Part shown: positions 381 to 53,381 of the stretch, piece by piece
How the letters are laid out: each line of letters opens with the position of its first letter
How positions within the stretch are numbered: position 1 is the first letter of the stretch
Origin: Methanococcoides sp.
Lineage (GTDB): Archaea > Halobacteriota > Methanosarcinia > Methanosarcinales > Methanosarcinaceae
Length of the DNA: 54,265 bases
Direction: 5' to 3'
Assembly (NCBI GenBank): GCA_021108185.1
Contig: JAIORJ010000112.1
Location: 1 to 54,265, forward strand
Position numbers and translations under genes: made by a program
Notes under the pieces: generated by a model
What the model saw: only the letters and a program-made list of their open reading frames with translations
Told to the model about the DNA's origin: nothing
The model's database searches: none

Positions 381-1652
381 GTGGTTGGTATTTTTGTAGT
401 TAATATTTTCGTGGTGGGTGATACTATTAAAACATTAAATGTAGATTCTCGATTCATTAGCAGAGCTAGTAAAATATTCCATTTTAACCTGAGATCTTAC
501 AGGATCATTGGTTTAGCATTACTTTTGTTGTTGCTTGTAAGCACCGGTGCAGCATTAGCTGAAGAGCCAAATATCTGCAGAGAACTTCCGGCAAGTGCAA
601 ACCCGGGTGACACAATAACCGTAATCCTGGACATCACACTTGATGGATCAGACAAGACCATCATCGAGGAAAATGTGCCTACAGGATGGAAAGTAAGCAA
701 TCCATCTGATGATGGATCGATCCTTGATGAAAATACGGTAAACTGGCTTTACATCAACTCAGCACCAGCTGCCGCACAGTTTACATATGATGTCACGATC
801 CCTAGAGATGCAGCACCAGGAACATACACATTTGATGGAGAGTTCGACCTGGCAGTAGCGGCTCCTGGACTCCAGCCAATTGACTGTGAAACACAGATGG
901 ATGTCGAAGATACAACATTGCCCATCAATGAGAAAACAGAGATCTCAAATAGTGGTAGCAGCAGTTCCTCCGGCAGCAGTAACGGTGGAAGTGGAGCATC
1001 TGGTGAAGCCTTTGAGAACATCGCATTTAAAGATGTGAAAGCGAAGAACATCATCGGTGGTGCCATAATCAGCTACACTTTCGATGAAGAACAGAATGCC
1101 ATTGATTACATCAAGTTCACCGCACTGAAGAATTATGGAGAGGTTTCAACAACTGTCGAGGTCCTTAAAGATAAATCTGCAATGGTCGATGAAAGGGCTC
1201 CAGGACTTGTATATCGCAACCTCAACATTTGGGTTGGTAAAGTGGGATTCGCCACAGAAGATAACATTGCACATCCTGTGATAGGTTTTAGTGTCTCCAA
1301 AGCATGGCTCACAGAGAATGAGATCAATGAAGATGCTATTGCATTGTATCGCCATAGTGAAGGTAAATGGAACAATTTGAATACCATAAAGATAGGGGAA
1401 GATGATTCATACATCTATTTTGAAGCAGAAACTCCCGGATTCTCACCATTTGCGATTACAGCAGATACAGAAGAGGATGATACATCGATAGTAAACGATG
1501 CTGAACCAAAATATGCAGGATCTGATGCTGAAGCAGAAACACCAATTGAGGATGAAACTGCCAGTGAACCAAATAACACCCCGGGAATTTCAGGGATTTT
1601 ATCAGTGATGCTTCTGGGTTGTGCATACGTATTCAGCAAGAGAAAGAACTGA
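381..1652 (+). CDS. PGF-pre-PGF domain surface protein
   Basis: Secreted or anchored cell-surface protein of unknown role. After a signal peptide (hydrophobic stretch GLALLLLLLVSTGAALA, about residues 48-64) comes a DUF11-like beta region (about 65-175), a Ser/Gly linker (about 190-208) and a domain of about 150 residues (FENIAFKDVKAKNI... to TPGFSPFAI) that matches the methanogen PGF-pre-PGF domain. The C-terminus (TPGIS, a hydrophobic helix, then SKRKN) resembles an archaeosortase PGF-CTERM sorting signal, with IS replacing the usual FE. The first canonical in-frame start is GTG at 381, but it has no ribosome site. GGTGAT (417-422) lies directly upstream of an ATT codon at 426, a possible unusual start. 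A TATA-like TTTATATGG lies near 345-353. Confidence 0.8.
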   Translation: MVGIFVVNIFVVGDTIKTLNVDSRFISRASKIFHFNLRSYRIIGLALLLLLLVSTGAALAEEPNICRELPASANPGDTITVILDITLDGSDKTIIEENVPTGWKVSNPSDDGSILDENTVNWLYINSAPAAAQFTYDVTIPRDAAPGTYTFDGEFDLAVAAPGLQPIDCETQMDVEDTTLPINEKTEISNSGSSSSSGSSNGGSGASGEAFENIAFKDVKAKNIIGGAIISYTFDEEQNAIDYIKFTALKNYGEVSTTVEVLKDKSAMVDERAPGLVYRNLNIWVGKVGFATEDNIAHPVIGFSVSKAWLTENEINEDAIALYRHSEGKWNNLNTIKIGEDDSYIYFEAETPGFSPFAITADTEEDDTSIVNDAEPKYAGSDAEAETPIEDETASEPNNTPGISGILSVMLLGCAYVFSKRKN

Positions 1653-8933: not shown

Positions 8934-9341
8934 GTGGAAAAATTACATGTGTTCTTTGAGAAACTTGACAAGAATGAGTTTACTAGTAAGGATATTGACC
9001 TACTTGTTAAACAGATGACAGATGATGCAAAGCAGGGGATCATTGCACTGACAAAGGAAGACAGGCAATGGTTTGAGACCTATGCGTTCGGATTGCAGCA
9101 ATTTGAAGTGCTTTGCAGTAAAGACCCGTCTAAAATGAGAGCAGGGGACTGGAGACAGGCAGTACATGATTTTAGCAAGGTCCGGTTCTTTGTGGATGAT
9201 ATGGAAGAGAGGAAGATAGTCAAAAATGTATTCTGGAACGTGGAAGGAATAGTTACCTTCGATATCCCTGATAGTGCAGGATACAGGAACTTCATCTACT
9301 GCAGGATCAAAAGTTATCTTGAAAAGCTTTATAAATTGTGA
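8934..9341 (+). CDS. Hypothetical 135-aa soluble protein
   Basis: Not recognised. A soluble, probably mostly helical protein: acidic and Lys-rich at the start (EKLHVFFEKLDKNEF), with a central WFETYAFGLQQFEVLC and a Trp-containing MRAGDWRQAVHDF. There is no signal peptide or membrane helix. It starts with GTG, 7 bases after an AGGGGG ribosome site. The stop codon lies 11 bases from the stop of the convergent tnpB, and the IS hairpin begins 5 bases after it. The C-terminus may therefore have been set by the insertion. It looks intact and expressed despite the debris to its left. Confidence 0.6.
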   Translation: MEKLHVFFEKLDKNEFTSKDIDLLVKQMTDDAKQGIIALTKEDRQWFETYAFGLQQFEVLCSKDPSKMRAGDWRQAVHDFSKVRFFVDDMEERKIVKNVFWNVEGIVTFDIPDSAGYRNFIYCRIKSYLEKLYKL

Positions 9342-22823: not shown

Positions 22824-24638
22824 TCACACCGCATCATCAAGTCTAAGTCTTGGAGCAACCCCAAGGGATTTGATCTCATCAAGAAGCAACTTGAACGCAT
22901 AGCTCATTTCCACCGGGTGAATATCCGTTTCAGCACCACAGTTCGTACAGTATCTGATATTACGTGTCCTGTCAAAGGTTGCCACCATACCACAGTGCCC
23001 ACATACGAGTTCTACGACCTTATCAGACTCATCGAGAAGCCTTTCCTTCAAGGTCATCGCAGCACCGTGTCCGATCAGTACATCTCTTTCCATTTCACCA
23101 AACCTAAGACCTCCTTCACGGGCACGTCCCTCAGTTGGCTGACGGGTCAGTACCTGCACAGGACCTCTGGACCTTGCATGGATCTTTGATGCGACCATGT
23201 GGTGAAGCTTCTGATAAAGGATAACACCAACGAAAACATCCGCCTGGATCTTCTTACCGGTAACACCATCACAGAATACCTCTTTGCCTGTGTGGGAAAA
23301 ACCATTTTTCTGAAGCCCTGCACGGATACCATCCTCCTTATCGCCGGAGAATGCAGTACCCCACTTACGCTGACCTTCAAGAGAACCAAGTTTCCCACCG
23401 ATCATTTCCAGAACGTGAGCAACGGTCATACGTGAAGGGATAGCATGAGGATTAATAACAAGATCAGGAACCATACCAAGCTCCGTAAATGGCATATCAT
23501 GATATGGAACGATCAAACCGATAACTCCCTTCTGACCGTGTCTTGATGCGAACTTGTCACCGATCTCAGGAATCCTCTCATCCCTTATCTTCACCTTTGC
23601 AAGCCTTGTACCATTGATAGACTCAGTAAGAATAACAGTATCAACGATACCTTTCTCGTTAGAGCGCATCGTGATCGCACTTTCCCTGCGCTGTTCAATG
23701 GCTATACCAAAGTCAGACTGCTCTTCAAGGAACCTTGGAGGACTTGTCTTACCGATAAGCACATCATTTGGACCTACAACGGTCTCAGGGTTCACAAGAC
23801 CATCAATATCGAGGTTTGCATATGCTTCTGCACTACGGGCACCCCTGAACTCAGAATCCGGTATCTCGAACTTGTCTTCCTGGCCACCAGGATAGCGGCG
23901 TTCTTCACCTTCAAAGGTTCTCAGGAAGTGGCTTCTTCCAAGACCCCTCTCAATGGAACCCTTGTTGAAGACCAGTGCATCCTCAATATTATGCCCTTCA
24001 TAGGACATAACAGCTACAACGAAGTTCTGTCCAGCCGGACGTTCATCGAAATGGATAGAATCACAGGTCTGAGTACGAGTCATTGCCTTCTGCGGATAGT
24101 GAAGTACATGTGCACGTGTATCTGGCCTGAGTTTCAGGTTGGATGAAGAAACACCGATACACTGCTTGATCATAGCTGCACCCATGGTGTTCCTCGGAGA
24201 AGCATTGTGCTCCGGATATGGGACCATACCAGTACAGATACCAAGCATCAAGGAGGGGTCTATCTCAAGATGGGTGTGGTTAGGAGTAAGGTCCTTTTCA
24301 TAAAGACCAATGAATATATTCTCTTCCTCTTCAGCATCCAGATATTCAACAAAGCCCATAGCCAAAACATCACGGAACGATATCTCGCCATCCCGGAGCT
24401 TTTCGATATGTTCTTCAGTGATCAGCGGAACACCATCTTTAACAACGAGAGCAGGCCTTCTTGCGCGACCCATATCAGAGCTTAAGATTACTTCGTGAAT
24501 ATCCTCGTAAAGAGTTACATTCAACTGATCAGGCAACATACCGCTGCGGCGCTGCCCCCTTATACTCTCGACAAGCTCTACCGGATCATCGTGAGTTCCG
24601 ATAAATTCCCCATCGAGGAAGACTTTTGTTTCAGTCAT
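22824..24638 (-). CDS. rpoB1: DNA-directed RNA polymerase subunit B'
   Basis: C-terminal part of the second-largest subunit, 604 residues. Key segments are [13 protein letters not shown] (active-site lysines), [14 protein letters not shown] and the zinc site CGHCG...CTNCG near the C-terminus. The split of B into B'' and B' is the usual state in methanogens. GGAGGTG precedes the ATG, which overlaps the rpoB2 end by 4 bases. Confidence 0.98.
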
Positions 24639-26320
24639 TCTTGCACCTCCGCCTCATCGCCGCCCACAGGATCGGCATTTTCATCCATGAACTCATGATA
24701 GTCAACATCTCCAGGTACAGCCACTGCTTTGGTTTCGACCTTTACAGCAGGTTCATCGCCCTCATCATGAGGAGTCAATTCCAGATCGTCCTCATAATCC
24801 ACATCAGCAGCCAATTCCAATATGATTTCCGGGACATAGATTTCCACAGGAGTTACACCAAGTCCGTAAATGACATTCTTAACAACTTCCTTATCCTCTA
24901 TACCAGTAGAAAGCTCGACCATCTGGGCAAAGTTCTTCACCAGACCACAATTTGGACCTTCCGGAGTCTCTGAAGGACAAAGGCGTCCCCATTGTGTGGG
25001 ATGCAGATCACGAGCCTCAAAGTGAGGTTGTGCCCTTGAAAGTGGAGAAATGACACGTCTTAAGTGAGAAAGAGTTGAGATGTAATCCGTGCGGTCAAGC
25101 AATTGAGATACACCACTCCTTCCGCCTACCCAGTTACCTGTGGCAAGAGGGTGCTGAAGACGGTCGGTAAGAACATCCGCACGCACAAGTGTCGCTACAT
25201 TCAATTCCCTGTTCCTCATGTTAGCCCGTTCAAGCTGGTATTTTACATCACGTGCAAGACGATTGAAAGCTACCCTGAAAAGATCTTCCATCAGGTCACC
25301 GGTCAACTTAAGCCTCTTATTGGAGTAGTGATCCTTGTCATCATCTGAGCGCCTTTTAAGAGCAAGTTCGAAGCATGATTCCGCCATCCTACCAAGGAAA
25401 TGTGCCTTTGGGATCCTGTCCTTAGGATCGTTGCCAAGGTGTGGAAGAAGATAACGGTCGATAACATAGTTCGCACGCTTCATCTGGTATTCCCTTGCCT
25501 GTCCGGAAGCCACACGGCCACCGATCTTCTCAATAGCATCTTCTATTGTGAAGACCTCTGCCTCTTCGAGGTTCTCGAACATGAACTTCATGATCTCAGG
25601 ATCTGTCGAAACGATCTTTGCGACATCTTCATCGGTCTCAACACCCAGAGCGCGCATCAATGTAATGAAGTTGATACGACCGGAGATAGATGGGAATGAG
25701 ATCTCCAAAAGGGATTTCCTGCCTCTTTCCACGACTACAAGTGCCCTGTAACCTCTCCTCTGAGAGAACACCTTTGAAACTTCGATGGAGTCACCATACC
25801 GCTCACCGAGCTCAGTAAGGATCTTGTTAGGGGCAAGGTCCTCAAGTGTCATCACAACACGTTCAGTACCATTTACAATAAAATATCCCCCAGGATCAAG
25901 CGGATCCTCACCATGTTGGATCATTTCGGCATCGCTTATGCCAACAAGGTTACAGATCTCCGATTTGATCATTACAGGAAGCTGGCCGACCTTTGCCTCC
26001 CTTGGCTCTCCTTCCTCACCATTCTGTACAACAGACATTTCCAGGAAAAGAGGAGCCGAATAAGAAAGGTTACGCAACCTTGCCTCGTTTGGATACAATT
26101 TCTCAATTGCACCATCTGCTTCTTTTACTACTGGATGTTCCACCCTTATCTTACCAAGTTTGACATAGATATCCTCGAGATCGGTCTCAATTATACCTTG
26201 TTCATTAATGATCTTCTGAAGACCATGTTTGACAAACTTGTCATAAGAGTCAATGTGATGCTGCACAATCTTGTCCTTTGTGAAATAGGCTTCTGATAAT
26301 ACGCTCGTGTCTAACGCGAT
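24635..26320 (-). CDS. rpoB2: DNA-directed RNA polymerase subunit B''
   Basis: N-terminal part of the second-largest subunit, 543 residues from the first canonical start (GTG at 26266). It contains the lobe and protrusion domains, with [14 protein letters not shown], and the end matching fork-loop segment [20 protein letters not shown]. The reading frame continues upstream of 26266 with [17 protein letters not shown], which resembles the N-termini of archaeal B'' proteins. No ATG, GTG or TTG exists in frame before the TAA near 26340. A GAGGG ribosome-like site lies 7 bases before an ATC at 26320 that would give M-A-L-D-T. I extend the gene to that codon as a proposal; the safe canonical start is 26266. 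Confidence 0.93.
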
Positions 26321-49034: not shown

Positions 49035-50162
49035 TCAGATCACATTGAAATACAACAGCAGTGCAAGTAATAACAATACGACACCTGTAACGAACCTTAT
49101 CCCAGACCGTCGCTTCTCCCTGAATTGCATTACAGTTTCAGGACTCATCCCGAACGCCAGAAATACACCAAGTCCTAACACCGGAAGCACGACTCCAAAA
49201 TTGTAGAGGAAGAGATATACAGCTCCTTCCAGCAGATTTGTCCTTGCTATTAACATGTCCAGGATCGAAAGATAAACGGCACCTACACAGGGAGCCTTGA
49301 CCAATGAGAATAACCCGCCTGCAAAGAACGATAGAGCAAGGGCATTCTTCCCGTGTATGCTGTCCATAAAGGATACTATTGAACCCGGTGTTTTGAAGGT
49401 CGATCTTGAGTGACGCTTGAGGTAGTATGCGTCATAGATATGCCAGATACCGAGTACCCCTATCAATACCGTCATGAATAATGTTATAGCATCCCTTGAT
49501 GCAGGGAAGATAGTGACGGCTTTAAGGAAACTTATTCCGAATATCATGTAAGTGGTGAATATACCGGCGCAGAACCCACCGATGACCACCAGCATTTCTT
49601 TCTTTCCACCGTTGGAGGATATCGTGACCGAAGCCAGGAATGCCATCACCGCGAGAAGGCAGGGATTGAAGCCGGCGAGCAGGCCTGTGATCAGTACAAT
49701 TAATGGTGAAAGCTTAAAGGAAGTAACGCTTCCATCAACATTTTTGGCTAATGGTAAAGTACCATTGGCAGGAATTGTCGGTGCGTTCTCAATAGCTTCT
49801 ACCAGAAGGCTTTCAAGTAATATATCATCCCCATCGTAATCGGAATAGGCGATAACCGTACTCTTGTTTATGACAATAGCGGGAACAGTGTATACTCCGT
49901 ATCCTTTCATGATACTGTAGGAGGTTGCTATGTTGTGACTTGTGTAATTGATGTCGTCATAACTGCTTATCACCGAATCTATGACAGGGGATGTTTGCTG
50001 GCATTTCAGGCAGCCATCCTCGTAGAAATATTCAACCATCACTCCGTCTGATCGGGCTGCTGAAGCAGGCATCATGCTTGAAATGACAAGCAGAAGTATC
50101 AATAAGGTCAATATCGATTTAGTGGCATACTGTCGTAGCACATGTCCGTTTGTCATATTCAC
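49035..50162 (-). CDS. Thioredoxin-like domain fused to DsbD/CcdA transmembrane domain
   Basis: 375 residues. Signal peptide (about 15-36), then an outward-facing thioredoxin-like domain with CLKC (51-54) and a cis-Pro in YTVPAIVI. From about residue 130 follows a six- to eight-helix DsbD/CcdA domain with the paired transport cysteines in GFNPCLLAVMAF and VKAPCVGAVY. It would carry reducing power across the membrane to exported proteins. The thioredoxin-like domain is fused N-terminally, whereas in DsbD it is C-terminal. The gene overlaps the upstream small gene by 44 bases. Confidence 0.88.
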   Translation of the reverse strand: MNMTNGHVLRQYATKSILTLLILLLVISSMMPASAARSDGVMVEYFYEDGCLKCQQTSPVIDSVISSYDDINYTSHNIATSYSIMKGYGVYTVPAIVINKSTVIAYSDYDGDDILLESLLVEAIENAPTIPANGTLPLAKNVDGSVTSFKLSPLIVLITGLLAGFNPCLLAVMAFLASVTISSNGGKKEMLVVIGGFCAGIFTTYMIFGISFLKAVTIFPASRDAITLFMTVLIGVLGIWHIYDAYYLKRHSRSTFKTPGSIVSFMDSIHGKNALALSFFAGGLFSLVKAPCVGAVYLSILDMLIARTNLLEGAVYLFLYNFGVVLPVLGLGVFLAFGMSPETVMQFREKRRSGIRFVTGVVLLLLALLLYFNVI

Positions 50163-50574
50163 TCTCTGAAACTATCTGTTTTGAGATTTCCAGCACATCA
50201 CCGGTATCTGCCAAGACATAACCTTCCAGAACATACAGATCGCTTATCTTCTGGCAAGCGCAACTGCGTTCCATGATCTCAACTTTCCAAATGTCGTATC
50301 CCTGCATGGCAGTACCATTCTGGTCGTAAGGTGTTTCCTGGACAAAGGTTGTTCTGGTAACCCTCCAATCCGGTTCTTTGAAGTGACGTGACATGTAATC
50401 GGATGCAACCGGATTATTCATCGTAATTTCTACGGCTTGAGAGCCATTAAAATTAGGCCTCGACTGCACATCGCTCTCCTGCTGAGAATAATTGGCATAA
50501 ACAAGACCTACCCCCACAAGACAAAATATAACCACTACAGCTACTGCTGCTACAACTAAATTTGAACTTTTTAT
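50119..50574 (-). CDS. Small exported protein with C-terminal Cys pairs, partner of the DsbD-like protein
   Basis: From GTG at 50535 it has 138 residues; with the ATA at 50574 it gains 13, giving a proper signal anchor (MIKSSNLVVAAVAVVVIF). The exported part has a PepSY-like look (ASDYMSRHFKEP ... YDIWKVEIM ... LADTGDVLEIS). Cysteines are in SCACQK and at the very end in CATTVCH. Overlap with the DsbD-type gene suggests that these Cys exchange electrons with it. The GTG lacks a ribosome site, while GGGGG sits 7 bases before the ATA. Confidence 0.65.
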   Translation of the reverse strand: MKSSNLVVAAVAVVVIFCLVGVGLVYANYSQQESDVQSRPNFNGSQAVEITMNNPVASDYMSRHFKEPDWRVTRTTFVQETPYDQNGTAMQGYDIWKVEIMERSCACQKISDLYVLEGYVLADTGDVLEISKQIVSESEYDKRTCATTVCH

Positions 50575-52389: not shown

Positions 52390-53043
52390 TTAACAATATG
52401 GCTTATCTGTACGATACAGATCTATCAGTTCACTGACATCTGCAATCGATGTTGAACCCTGTAAACGGTAGTCATCGATTGCCGCACTCACTTCACCAAT
52501 ATCGATCATACAGTTCTTATTTTCATCGTACGGATTGTATGTAACTACAGGGGCTTCATTAATAGTCAGAGTCGTATTTATGACCAGGGCCTCTATGGCA
52601 GATCCTAATGAGTCACTTATGATCACGTTTTTCAGACTAATTGTTGATGTGCCTGCAGCCTGCTCTTTTACACTCATTGTGATGCTTGCAGCTGACTCAG
52701 GTCCTAAGATTCCTGGAGAACCCATTATCAAACTGTAAACACCTGAAAGTGTTCCTGCATTGTTGTCTATGCTTCCGGCGTTGAAAAATGTTAAAGCTCC
52801 ATTCTGGCTAAACAATAAGCCTTCAGATACGCTGTCTACCTGTATTTTTGAGCTGTCAAACTCGAGATCGAACTGTAATCCTGCAATTGCAGTATCAGGT
52901 GATACAAAGACATCTACTGTGAAACTTTCACCGGTTGTAAGCATTTGAGTTGATGGTTCAAGTGTTACTTCTGTTGCAGTTGAATTGAAACAACCAAAAA
53001 CAAGCAGAAGTAAAAATATAGTAATTATTGTAACGTTTTTGAT
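52390..53043 (-). CDS. Secreted cohesin-like protein with dockerin-like C-terminus
   Basis: From the proposed ATC start it has 217 residues (234 from an ATG at 53094). The signal peptide is VTIITIFLLLLVFGC, with a possible lipid-modified Cys. A cohesin-type domain follows (about 25-150: GESFTVDVFVSPDTAIAGLQ, FDLEFDSSKIQVDSVSEGLL). The C-terminus has one or two EF-hand-like dockerin repeats (DENKNCMIDIGEVSAAIDDY, IADVSELIDLY). Methanogens have such pairs but no cellulosome, so a surface-assembly role is inferred. The ATG at 53094 would lie before the likely transcription start, and AGGAGGGG is 7 bases from the ATC. Confidence 0.82.
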   Translation of the reverse strand: MKNVTIITIFLLLLVFGCFNSTATEVTLEPSTQMLTTGESFTVDVFVSPDTAIAGLQFDLEFDSSKIQVDSVSEGLLFSQNGALTFFNAGSIDNNAGTLSGVYSLIMGSPGILGPESAASITMSVKEQAAGTSTISLKNVIISDSLGSAIEALVINTTLTINEAPVVTYNPYDENKNCMIDIGEVSAAIDDYRLQGSTSIADVSELIDLYRTDKPYC

Positions 53044-53082
53044 GGATACCCCTCCTATTTTAGAACTCGTAGATTTATAGCC

Positions 53083-53090
53083 ATATATAC
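53083..53090 (-). promoter_or_regulatory. TATA box of the cohesin-like gene
   Basis: TATATATG on the minus strand, within the conventional reading of the first codons of the same ORF. Transcription starting about 25 bases later (near 53060) would leave out the ATG at 53094 and give a leader of about 17 bases that contains only the AGGAGG ribosome site. Confidence 0.55.
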
Positions 53091-53381
53091 TCATTTGAGC
53101 ATTTGGATGATGATATAATAATTTGCCCTAAATAAAATCATTTTGGTACGTTTCAAATAGAGAGTTCGTAAAAAAGTTTAAAGGATATACTTTATTTAAA
53201 TTTATCAGAACAAAATTATTGCTTGAAATTAGCCGAAATACTCCGAACAATAGGATTATTGAAAGTTCTGGGTAAATTTTCTGCTTATTTAGGGGTTCGG
53301 TTTTTTGTGTTACCTATATCCCCACACTAATTCATTTAAAGCAGATCTATGTAATGCTTGACATTAGCTCAAACACTATAT

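Follow-up and report, generated by a model that had tools for sequence, protein, structure and literature searches.

AUC, AUU and AUA codons as probable conserved translation starts of a small set of genes in Methanosarcinales

The bacterial genes infC (AUU or AUA) and pcnB (AUU) have conserved AUH start codons (AUC, AUU or AUA; ATH in DNA) that hold output low and in which the third base is not G, and infC is autoregulated by its own product, IF3. To our knowledge, archaea have no bacterial IF3. In Staphylococcus aureus, ccpN (AUA) and cvfC1 (AUU) combine such codons with an extended Shine-Dalgarno (SD) sequence and give about 10% of AUG expression (PMC13009471). Among archaea, an ATC start has been proposed for L12ae of Staphylothermus marinus (PMC2678158) and an ATT start for the Asgard tubulin AtubA (PMC13394414); for conserved archaeal AUH sets, the published reports that we found cover just such single-gene, single-genome proposals.

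A preliminary description of one stretch of Methanococcoides sp. DNA (hereafter the window, meaning all 54,265 nt of contig JAIORJ010000112.1 that were analyzed) placed the start of a cohesin-domain gene at AUC, reported the same layout at three companion sites, and proposed that the organism may initiate regularly at AUC, AUA and AUU. Comparison with related genomes favored initiation at such codons for specific genes: the cohesin gene and rpoB2 have AUH in all close relatives examined, and the codon at 50574 aligns with ATG. The features of the cohesin locus are as follows.

52390..53043, minus strand: cohesin-domain gene read from the AUC (PF00963, Pfam E 2.5e-11), with a signal-peptide-like N-terminus in translation, MKNVTIITIFLLLLVFGC
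53041..53043, minus strand: probable AUC start codon of this secreted protein gene, preceded by AGGAGG and 7 nt; ATC or ATT in 9/9 copies
53051..53056, minus strand: Shine-Dalgarno sequence AGGAGG; predicted duplex with the 16S tail, -11.8 kcal/mol
53083..53089, minus strand: TATA-like promoter stretch TATATAT, read directly; ATTATATATG.(C/T)TATAAA is kept in relatives without a usable ATG
53092..53094, minus strand: sole canonical upstream start, ATG, judged unused; present only in the window's own species and two close relatives, G009 and G002

The start region on the minus strand reads ...AAAAT-AGGAGG-GGTATCC-ATC-AAA-AAC, with a 7-nt spacer, exactly as first described. The ATG at 53094, which had been named as the only canonical start, is indeed the only one upstream; it lies in frame, 17 codons before the ATC and at the edge of the TATA-like stretch, and no other canonical start follows until codon 34, counting from the ATC. 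Using the N-terminus as a search pattern, we found nine copies in seven genomes, six with ATC, three with ATT and none with ATG, which answers the question, raised at the outset, of whether orthologues have ATG at this codon. Immediately after a Shine-Dalgarno sequence, the copies in G013 (another genus), G004 and G003 carry ATC and that in G008 carries ATT. No in-frame upstream ATG was found in any of these four copies, which lie outside the own-species cluster, and in-frame stops occur 6-11 codons upstream of the AUH in G004, G003 and G008. Read at the nucleotide level, the copies in G009 and G002 have the ATC plus an ATG of the 53094 type. The TATA-like element is conserved and promoter-like even in copies lacking that ATG and, from archaeal promoter geometry, transcription would begin near 53059, leaving a short leader that holds just the SD. 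Comparative genomics supports AUC as the probable start of the cohesin gene, and the own-species cluster, in which the frame of ATG 53094 is intact, may use that ATG in addition.

Judged by its conservation, rpoB2, which encodes RNA polymerase subunit B'', is a stronger candidate than the cohesin gene for an AUH start.

24635..26320, minus strand: rpoB2 read from the AUC (PF04563/PF04561/PF04565); archaeal RNA polymerase structures align from residue 6-9
26318..26320, minus strand: probable AUC start codon of rpoB2; ATH in each of 38 Methanosarcinaceae sequences in which position alone defined the codon
26326..26332, minus strand: Shine-Dalgarno-like GAGGGTG, its GGTG aligned 7 nt from the AUC; AAAGAGGGTGCTATC is nearly invariant in Methanosarcinaceae
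26264..26266, minus strand: first canonical rpoB2 start, GTG, at codon 19, judged internal, within the conserved N-terminal region

The site reads GAGGG-TGCTATC-ATC, with an in-frame TAA seven codons upstream. An exact pattern search of 112 Methanosarcinaceae genomes gave 86 matches with ATH and none (0/112) with ATG. When the codon was instead read by position alone, 20 codons before the HHIDS motif, it was ATC, ATT or ATA in every one of the 38 sequences, and most family members examined have an in-frame stop within 16 codons upstream. Named records with ATH include Methanococcoides, Methanohalophilus, Methanolobus profundi (ATA) and Methanosarcina (ATC), and ATA is found in all matching genomes of the Methanolobus-like genus g4; the RpoB2 of the window matches a Methanococcoides seepicolus record at 98%. 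The start in the sister groups is two codons ahead of the same Asp, as GTG in ANME-2 and as ATG in Methanoperedens and Methanocellaceae. Solved RNA polymerases of archaea and eukaryotes can be aligned to the protein from residue 6-9 onward, and the GTG at 26266 falls within this aligned part. Codon-periodic conservation sets in at the AUH and falls off upstream of the SD (columns -9 to -3, which the search pattern itself fixed, are excluded as evidence), and the upstream leader sequence shows no conservation beyond about -16.

Individual rpoB2 genes depart from this picture. In G023 (L017) an in-frame TAA comes after the ancestral AUC, which has been replaced by a GTG farther downstream that has an SD of its own; L211 appears to be intermediate, with the AUC and the GTG present together. 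A five-codon out-of-frame mini-ORF over the rpoB2 start (GTG-CTA-TCA-TCG-CGT-TAG), present in many genomes, was considered as a coupling device and rejected; its stop varies and its GTG is missing in G019. Literature searches on rpoB2 or hps start codons in Methanosarcina gave nothing relevant.

A further gene with the same kind of start, hps, lies outside the window and encodes hexulose-phosphate synthase fused to an RraA-like domain (PF00215 + PF03737). Searching the order with the pattern GGTGAY-NNN(N)-ATN plus the N-terminus gave 104 sequences from three families, with ATC in 48, ATA in 33, ATT in 22 and ATG in one. In three genomes (G060, G086 and G087) the codon immediately preceding the AUH is an in-frame TAG, so translation could not come in from farther upstream. 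No canonical codon occurs before position 44, where an invariant Met lies beyond strand 1 of the barrel, and in solved HPS chains the first residue is the equivalent of position 3, placing the AUH about two residues ahead of the enzyme N-terminus. Codon-periodic conservation again begins at the AUH.

The sole ATG (G098:C1:3927838) occurs in genus g7, a genus of large Methanosarcina-like genomes, and shows that AUG is tolerated at the hps start; this natural AUG variant offers a comparison point for HPS levels. In L289 and L290 (G006 and G001), an in-frame ATG has arisen four codons upstream through a change beside the SD (AAATGGGTGATCAT-ATT), and is possibly an extra canonical hps start.

Compared on start position, SD at 7 nt, lack of a usable AUG, GUG or UUG, and conservation over genera, the cohesin gene at 53043, rpoB2 at 26320 and hps begin translation, with a probability that we put at roughly 85%, at AUC, or in relatives at AUU or AUA, as a small gene-specific class. 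In each of the three, the AUH stands at a conserved N-terminus and no usable canonical start was found. If the canonical codons were used nevertheless (ATG 53094 for cohesin, GTG 26266 for rpoB2 and the codon-44 ATG for hps), the AUH codons would be isoleucines or untranslated. These are the sole choices open to ORF callers, and the frame from 53094 is open in G000, G009 and G002, where synonymous changes are about as frequent as amino-acid changes. Against this, ATG 53094 is absent from the other cohesin copies and stops intervene there, the TAG before the hps AUH closes the frame in three genomes, and codons 2-18 of rpoB2 and 2-43 of hps show codon-periodic conservation and cover parts of the domains seen in solved structures, all of which makes canonical initiation at these genes very improbable.

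A sequencing or assembly error at true ATG starts is still harder to credit. The window comes from a 230-contig draft, and the ATA at 50574 is found in its own genome only. On the other hand, the same AUH occurs in more than 80 separately sequenced genomes for rpoB2 and more than 100 for hps, single-contig ones included. Such codons, kept in over a hundred related genomes, look deliberate and not like a sequencing mistake; the error reading is refuted for rpoB2, hps and cohesin and applies at most to 50574. The features at this site and at the remaining companion site are given here.

50572..50574, minus strand: species-specific candidate AUA start codon; ATG at the same codon in orthologues G002, G008 and G009
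50119..50574, minus strand: small membrane or secreted protein in translation from the AUA, no Pfam match
426..428, plus strand: ambiguous site, possibly the AUU start codon of a secreted protein; ATT-AAA kept in the own genome and three relatives

All three companion sites have the layout first attributed to them, and the start position holds at 26320 and 50574, while that at 426 is ambiguous. The site at 50574 reads AGGGGG-TACGCTT-ATA on the minus strand. The ATG found at this codon in the three orthologues means that the start position is correct; they have ATG-CAA in place of the ATA-AAA of the own genome. The ATA is possibly a functional AUA start, a recent AUG-to-AUA mutation in one species, or a draft error. 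At 426, on the plus strand, the sequence is GGTGGG-TGATACT-ATT, and GGTGAT stands 7 nt from the ATT in the own genome and the three relatives. The start is ambiguous because all of them have GTG-GTG in frame 4-5 codons before the ATT, and G002 has an ATG one codon upstream of the ATT. By conservation, the layout at cohesin, rpoB2 and 50574 is more than chance.

In this genus the modal aligned SD spacing is 7 nt, found at 53 of about 190 SD-led ATGs. The 7-nt spacing of the AUH sites equals this mode, so it is normal initiation geometry and not unusual in itself; the two ordinary GTG starts said to share it, at 8934 and 50969, were both confirmed. SD strength varies more among the sites. Among canonical starts of the comparison set, just 3% have an SD as strong as that of the cohesin gene, pairing at 50574 and 426 ranks in the top 6-8% of canonical genes and that of hps in the top 19%, and the rpoB2 SD is average (-6.8 kcal/mol, with 43% of canonical genes as strong). 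Hairpins that might mask the SD were also considered; with unpaired fractions of 34-52%, the initiation regions show no clear block.

In order to see how common such starts are, SD-led codons were counted in 800 kb of the sister genome G005. ATC, ATT and ATA were observed 23, 23 and 24 times, with 21, 24 and 30 expected; ATG was observed 176 times with 34 expected, and the TTG excess was large too. There was no bulk AUH excess in these 800 kb, nor when conservation in G010 was required in a screen of 1.2 Mb of each genome. A further screen of 373 orthologue pairs (G005 plus the window against G010) kept SD-led codons that were conserved and had a canonical start neither upstream nor in the next 8 codons; it yielded ATG 50 times, TTG six times, GTG three times and AUH in two genes, rpoB2 and hps, or about 2/61 of the unambiguous starts. 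Other AUH-looking matches in the pair screens (for example, IPDEVEF... and IHTDPDE...) were judged internal or unconvincing. The lack of AUH excess in the codon spectra means that these starts are a minority class, and the proposal that the organism initiates regularly at AUC, AUA and AUU is rejected, the two-genome conservation screens being in agreement. Three to four examples within one 54-kb window would fit regular use across the whole genome, yet with SD-led ATC, ATT and ATA no higher than expectation and two AUH genes beside 59 canonical ones, we think it quite unlikely. By these counts, the putative AUH starts are a small, gene-specific and conserved class.

The leftover ATA match in the orthologue-pair screen is a frameshift candidate in a winged-helix regulator gene, which is conserved in 19/40 Methanosarcinales genomes (L345, plus strand at about 111150 of G005:C1, and L346-L363; at about 15710 of G000:C26 in the own genome). 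Most copies read have the start SD-ATGAGGGATCGTTTTTGT(TGA), and translation from the ATG in most yields MRDRF-C-stop; it is the +1 frame that encodes the conserved protein, and this frame lacks a nearby canonical start. The near-invariant nucleotides suggest that programmed +1 frameshifting may take place at UUU-U.

As to how the AUH codons might work, the 16S tail would pair with the SD and hold the AUH in the P site, and Met-tRNAi (anticodon CAU) would pair at the first two bases and mismatch at the third. The protein would thereby begin with Met, at reduced efficiency, and the weak start could be kept because output of these proteins is limited or tuned. Most likely, then, the AUH codons act as Shine-Dalgarno-driven weak starts limiting protein output. 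Their third base moves among A, C and U and is almost never G, with ATG at 0/86 matched rpoB2 sites, 1/104 hps and 0/9 cohesin copies, and this avoidance of AUG suggests that the weak start may be under selection. The tree requires at least five third-base changes in rpoB2 and at least six in hps; given 17% G at four-fold sites, the probability of no G in 11 changes is about 0.13, and with just five and six changes these statistics are suggestive only.

It is also possible, if not the reading that we would choose, that the AUH starts are real and have drifted neutrally, a good SD compensating and no regulatory role being involved. The above-average SDs of cohesin and hps, the modest number of independent third-base changes lacking G, and the one ATG in hps are all consistent with drift. 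Less easily reconciled with it are the long family-wide retention and the lack of reversion to AUG, which is strongly favored at starts generally, and the rpoB2 ATA of genus g4, one transition from ATG, a change never seen in the matching genomes. For reference, AUG-to-AUU switches have been put at 1 in 61,358 ancestral AUGs (PMC5622118).

If the AUH codons are instead selected weak starts, it is tempting to speculate, although tentatively, that Methanosarcinales keep them on a small gene set, including RNA polymerase B'' and hexulose-phosphate synthase, whose translation responds to start-codon stringency (initiation-factor level, temperature or growth state), as an archaeal start-codon regulon without IF3. 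In M. mazei under nitrogen limitation, rpoB/A are listed among genes down at the ribosome level (PMC11456600), which we take as a lead for translational control and not as evidence of it.

Because standard gene callers are unable to place AUH starts, annotations of Methanosarcinaceae probably give RpoB2 and HPS in wrongly shortened form; for HPS the loss would be 43 residues and the first strand. A deeply conserved archaeal AUH set with a core RNA polymerase gene as one member, in a group that includes the genetically tractable Methanosarcina, raises the question of why an essential gene would have a weak start and how archaeal initiation factors judge start codons.

The archaeal genes resemble infC and pcnB in their conserved AUH with a third base that is not G, and low output would be a further likeness. 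They differ from infC in what they encode, namely RNA polymerase subunit B'', hexulose-phosphate synthase and a secreted cohesin protein; none is an initiation factor sensing start-codon fidelity. An aIF1 with an AUH start was considered as a parallel to infC, but the aIF1 gene of the own genome has an ordinary ATG start, which gives no sign of an initiation-factor loop in the style of infC. The likeness to ccpN and cvfC1 of S. aureus lies in a conserved, SD-directed and gene-specific AUH start, although those are bacterial and experimentally mapped whereas the archaeal set is known from sequence. Like L12ae and AtubA, the methanogen starts are proposed from alignment and a plausible start position; those proposals concern single genes in single genomes, whereas the methanogen AUH is kept family-wide and, in hps, across three families of an order.
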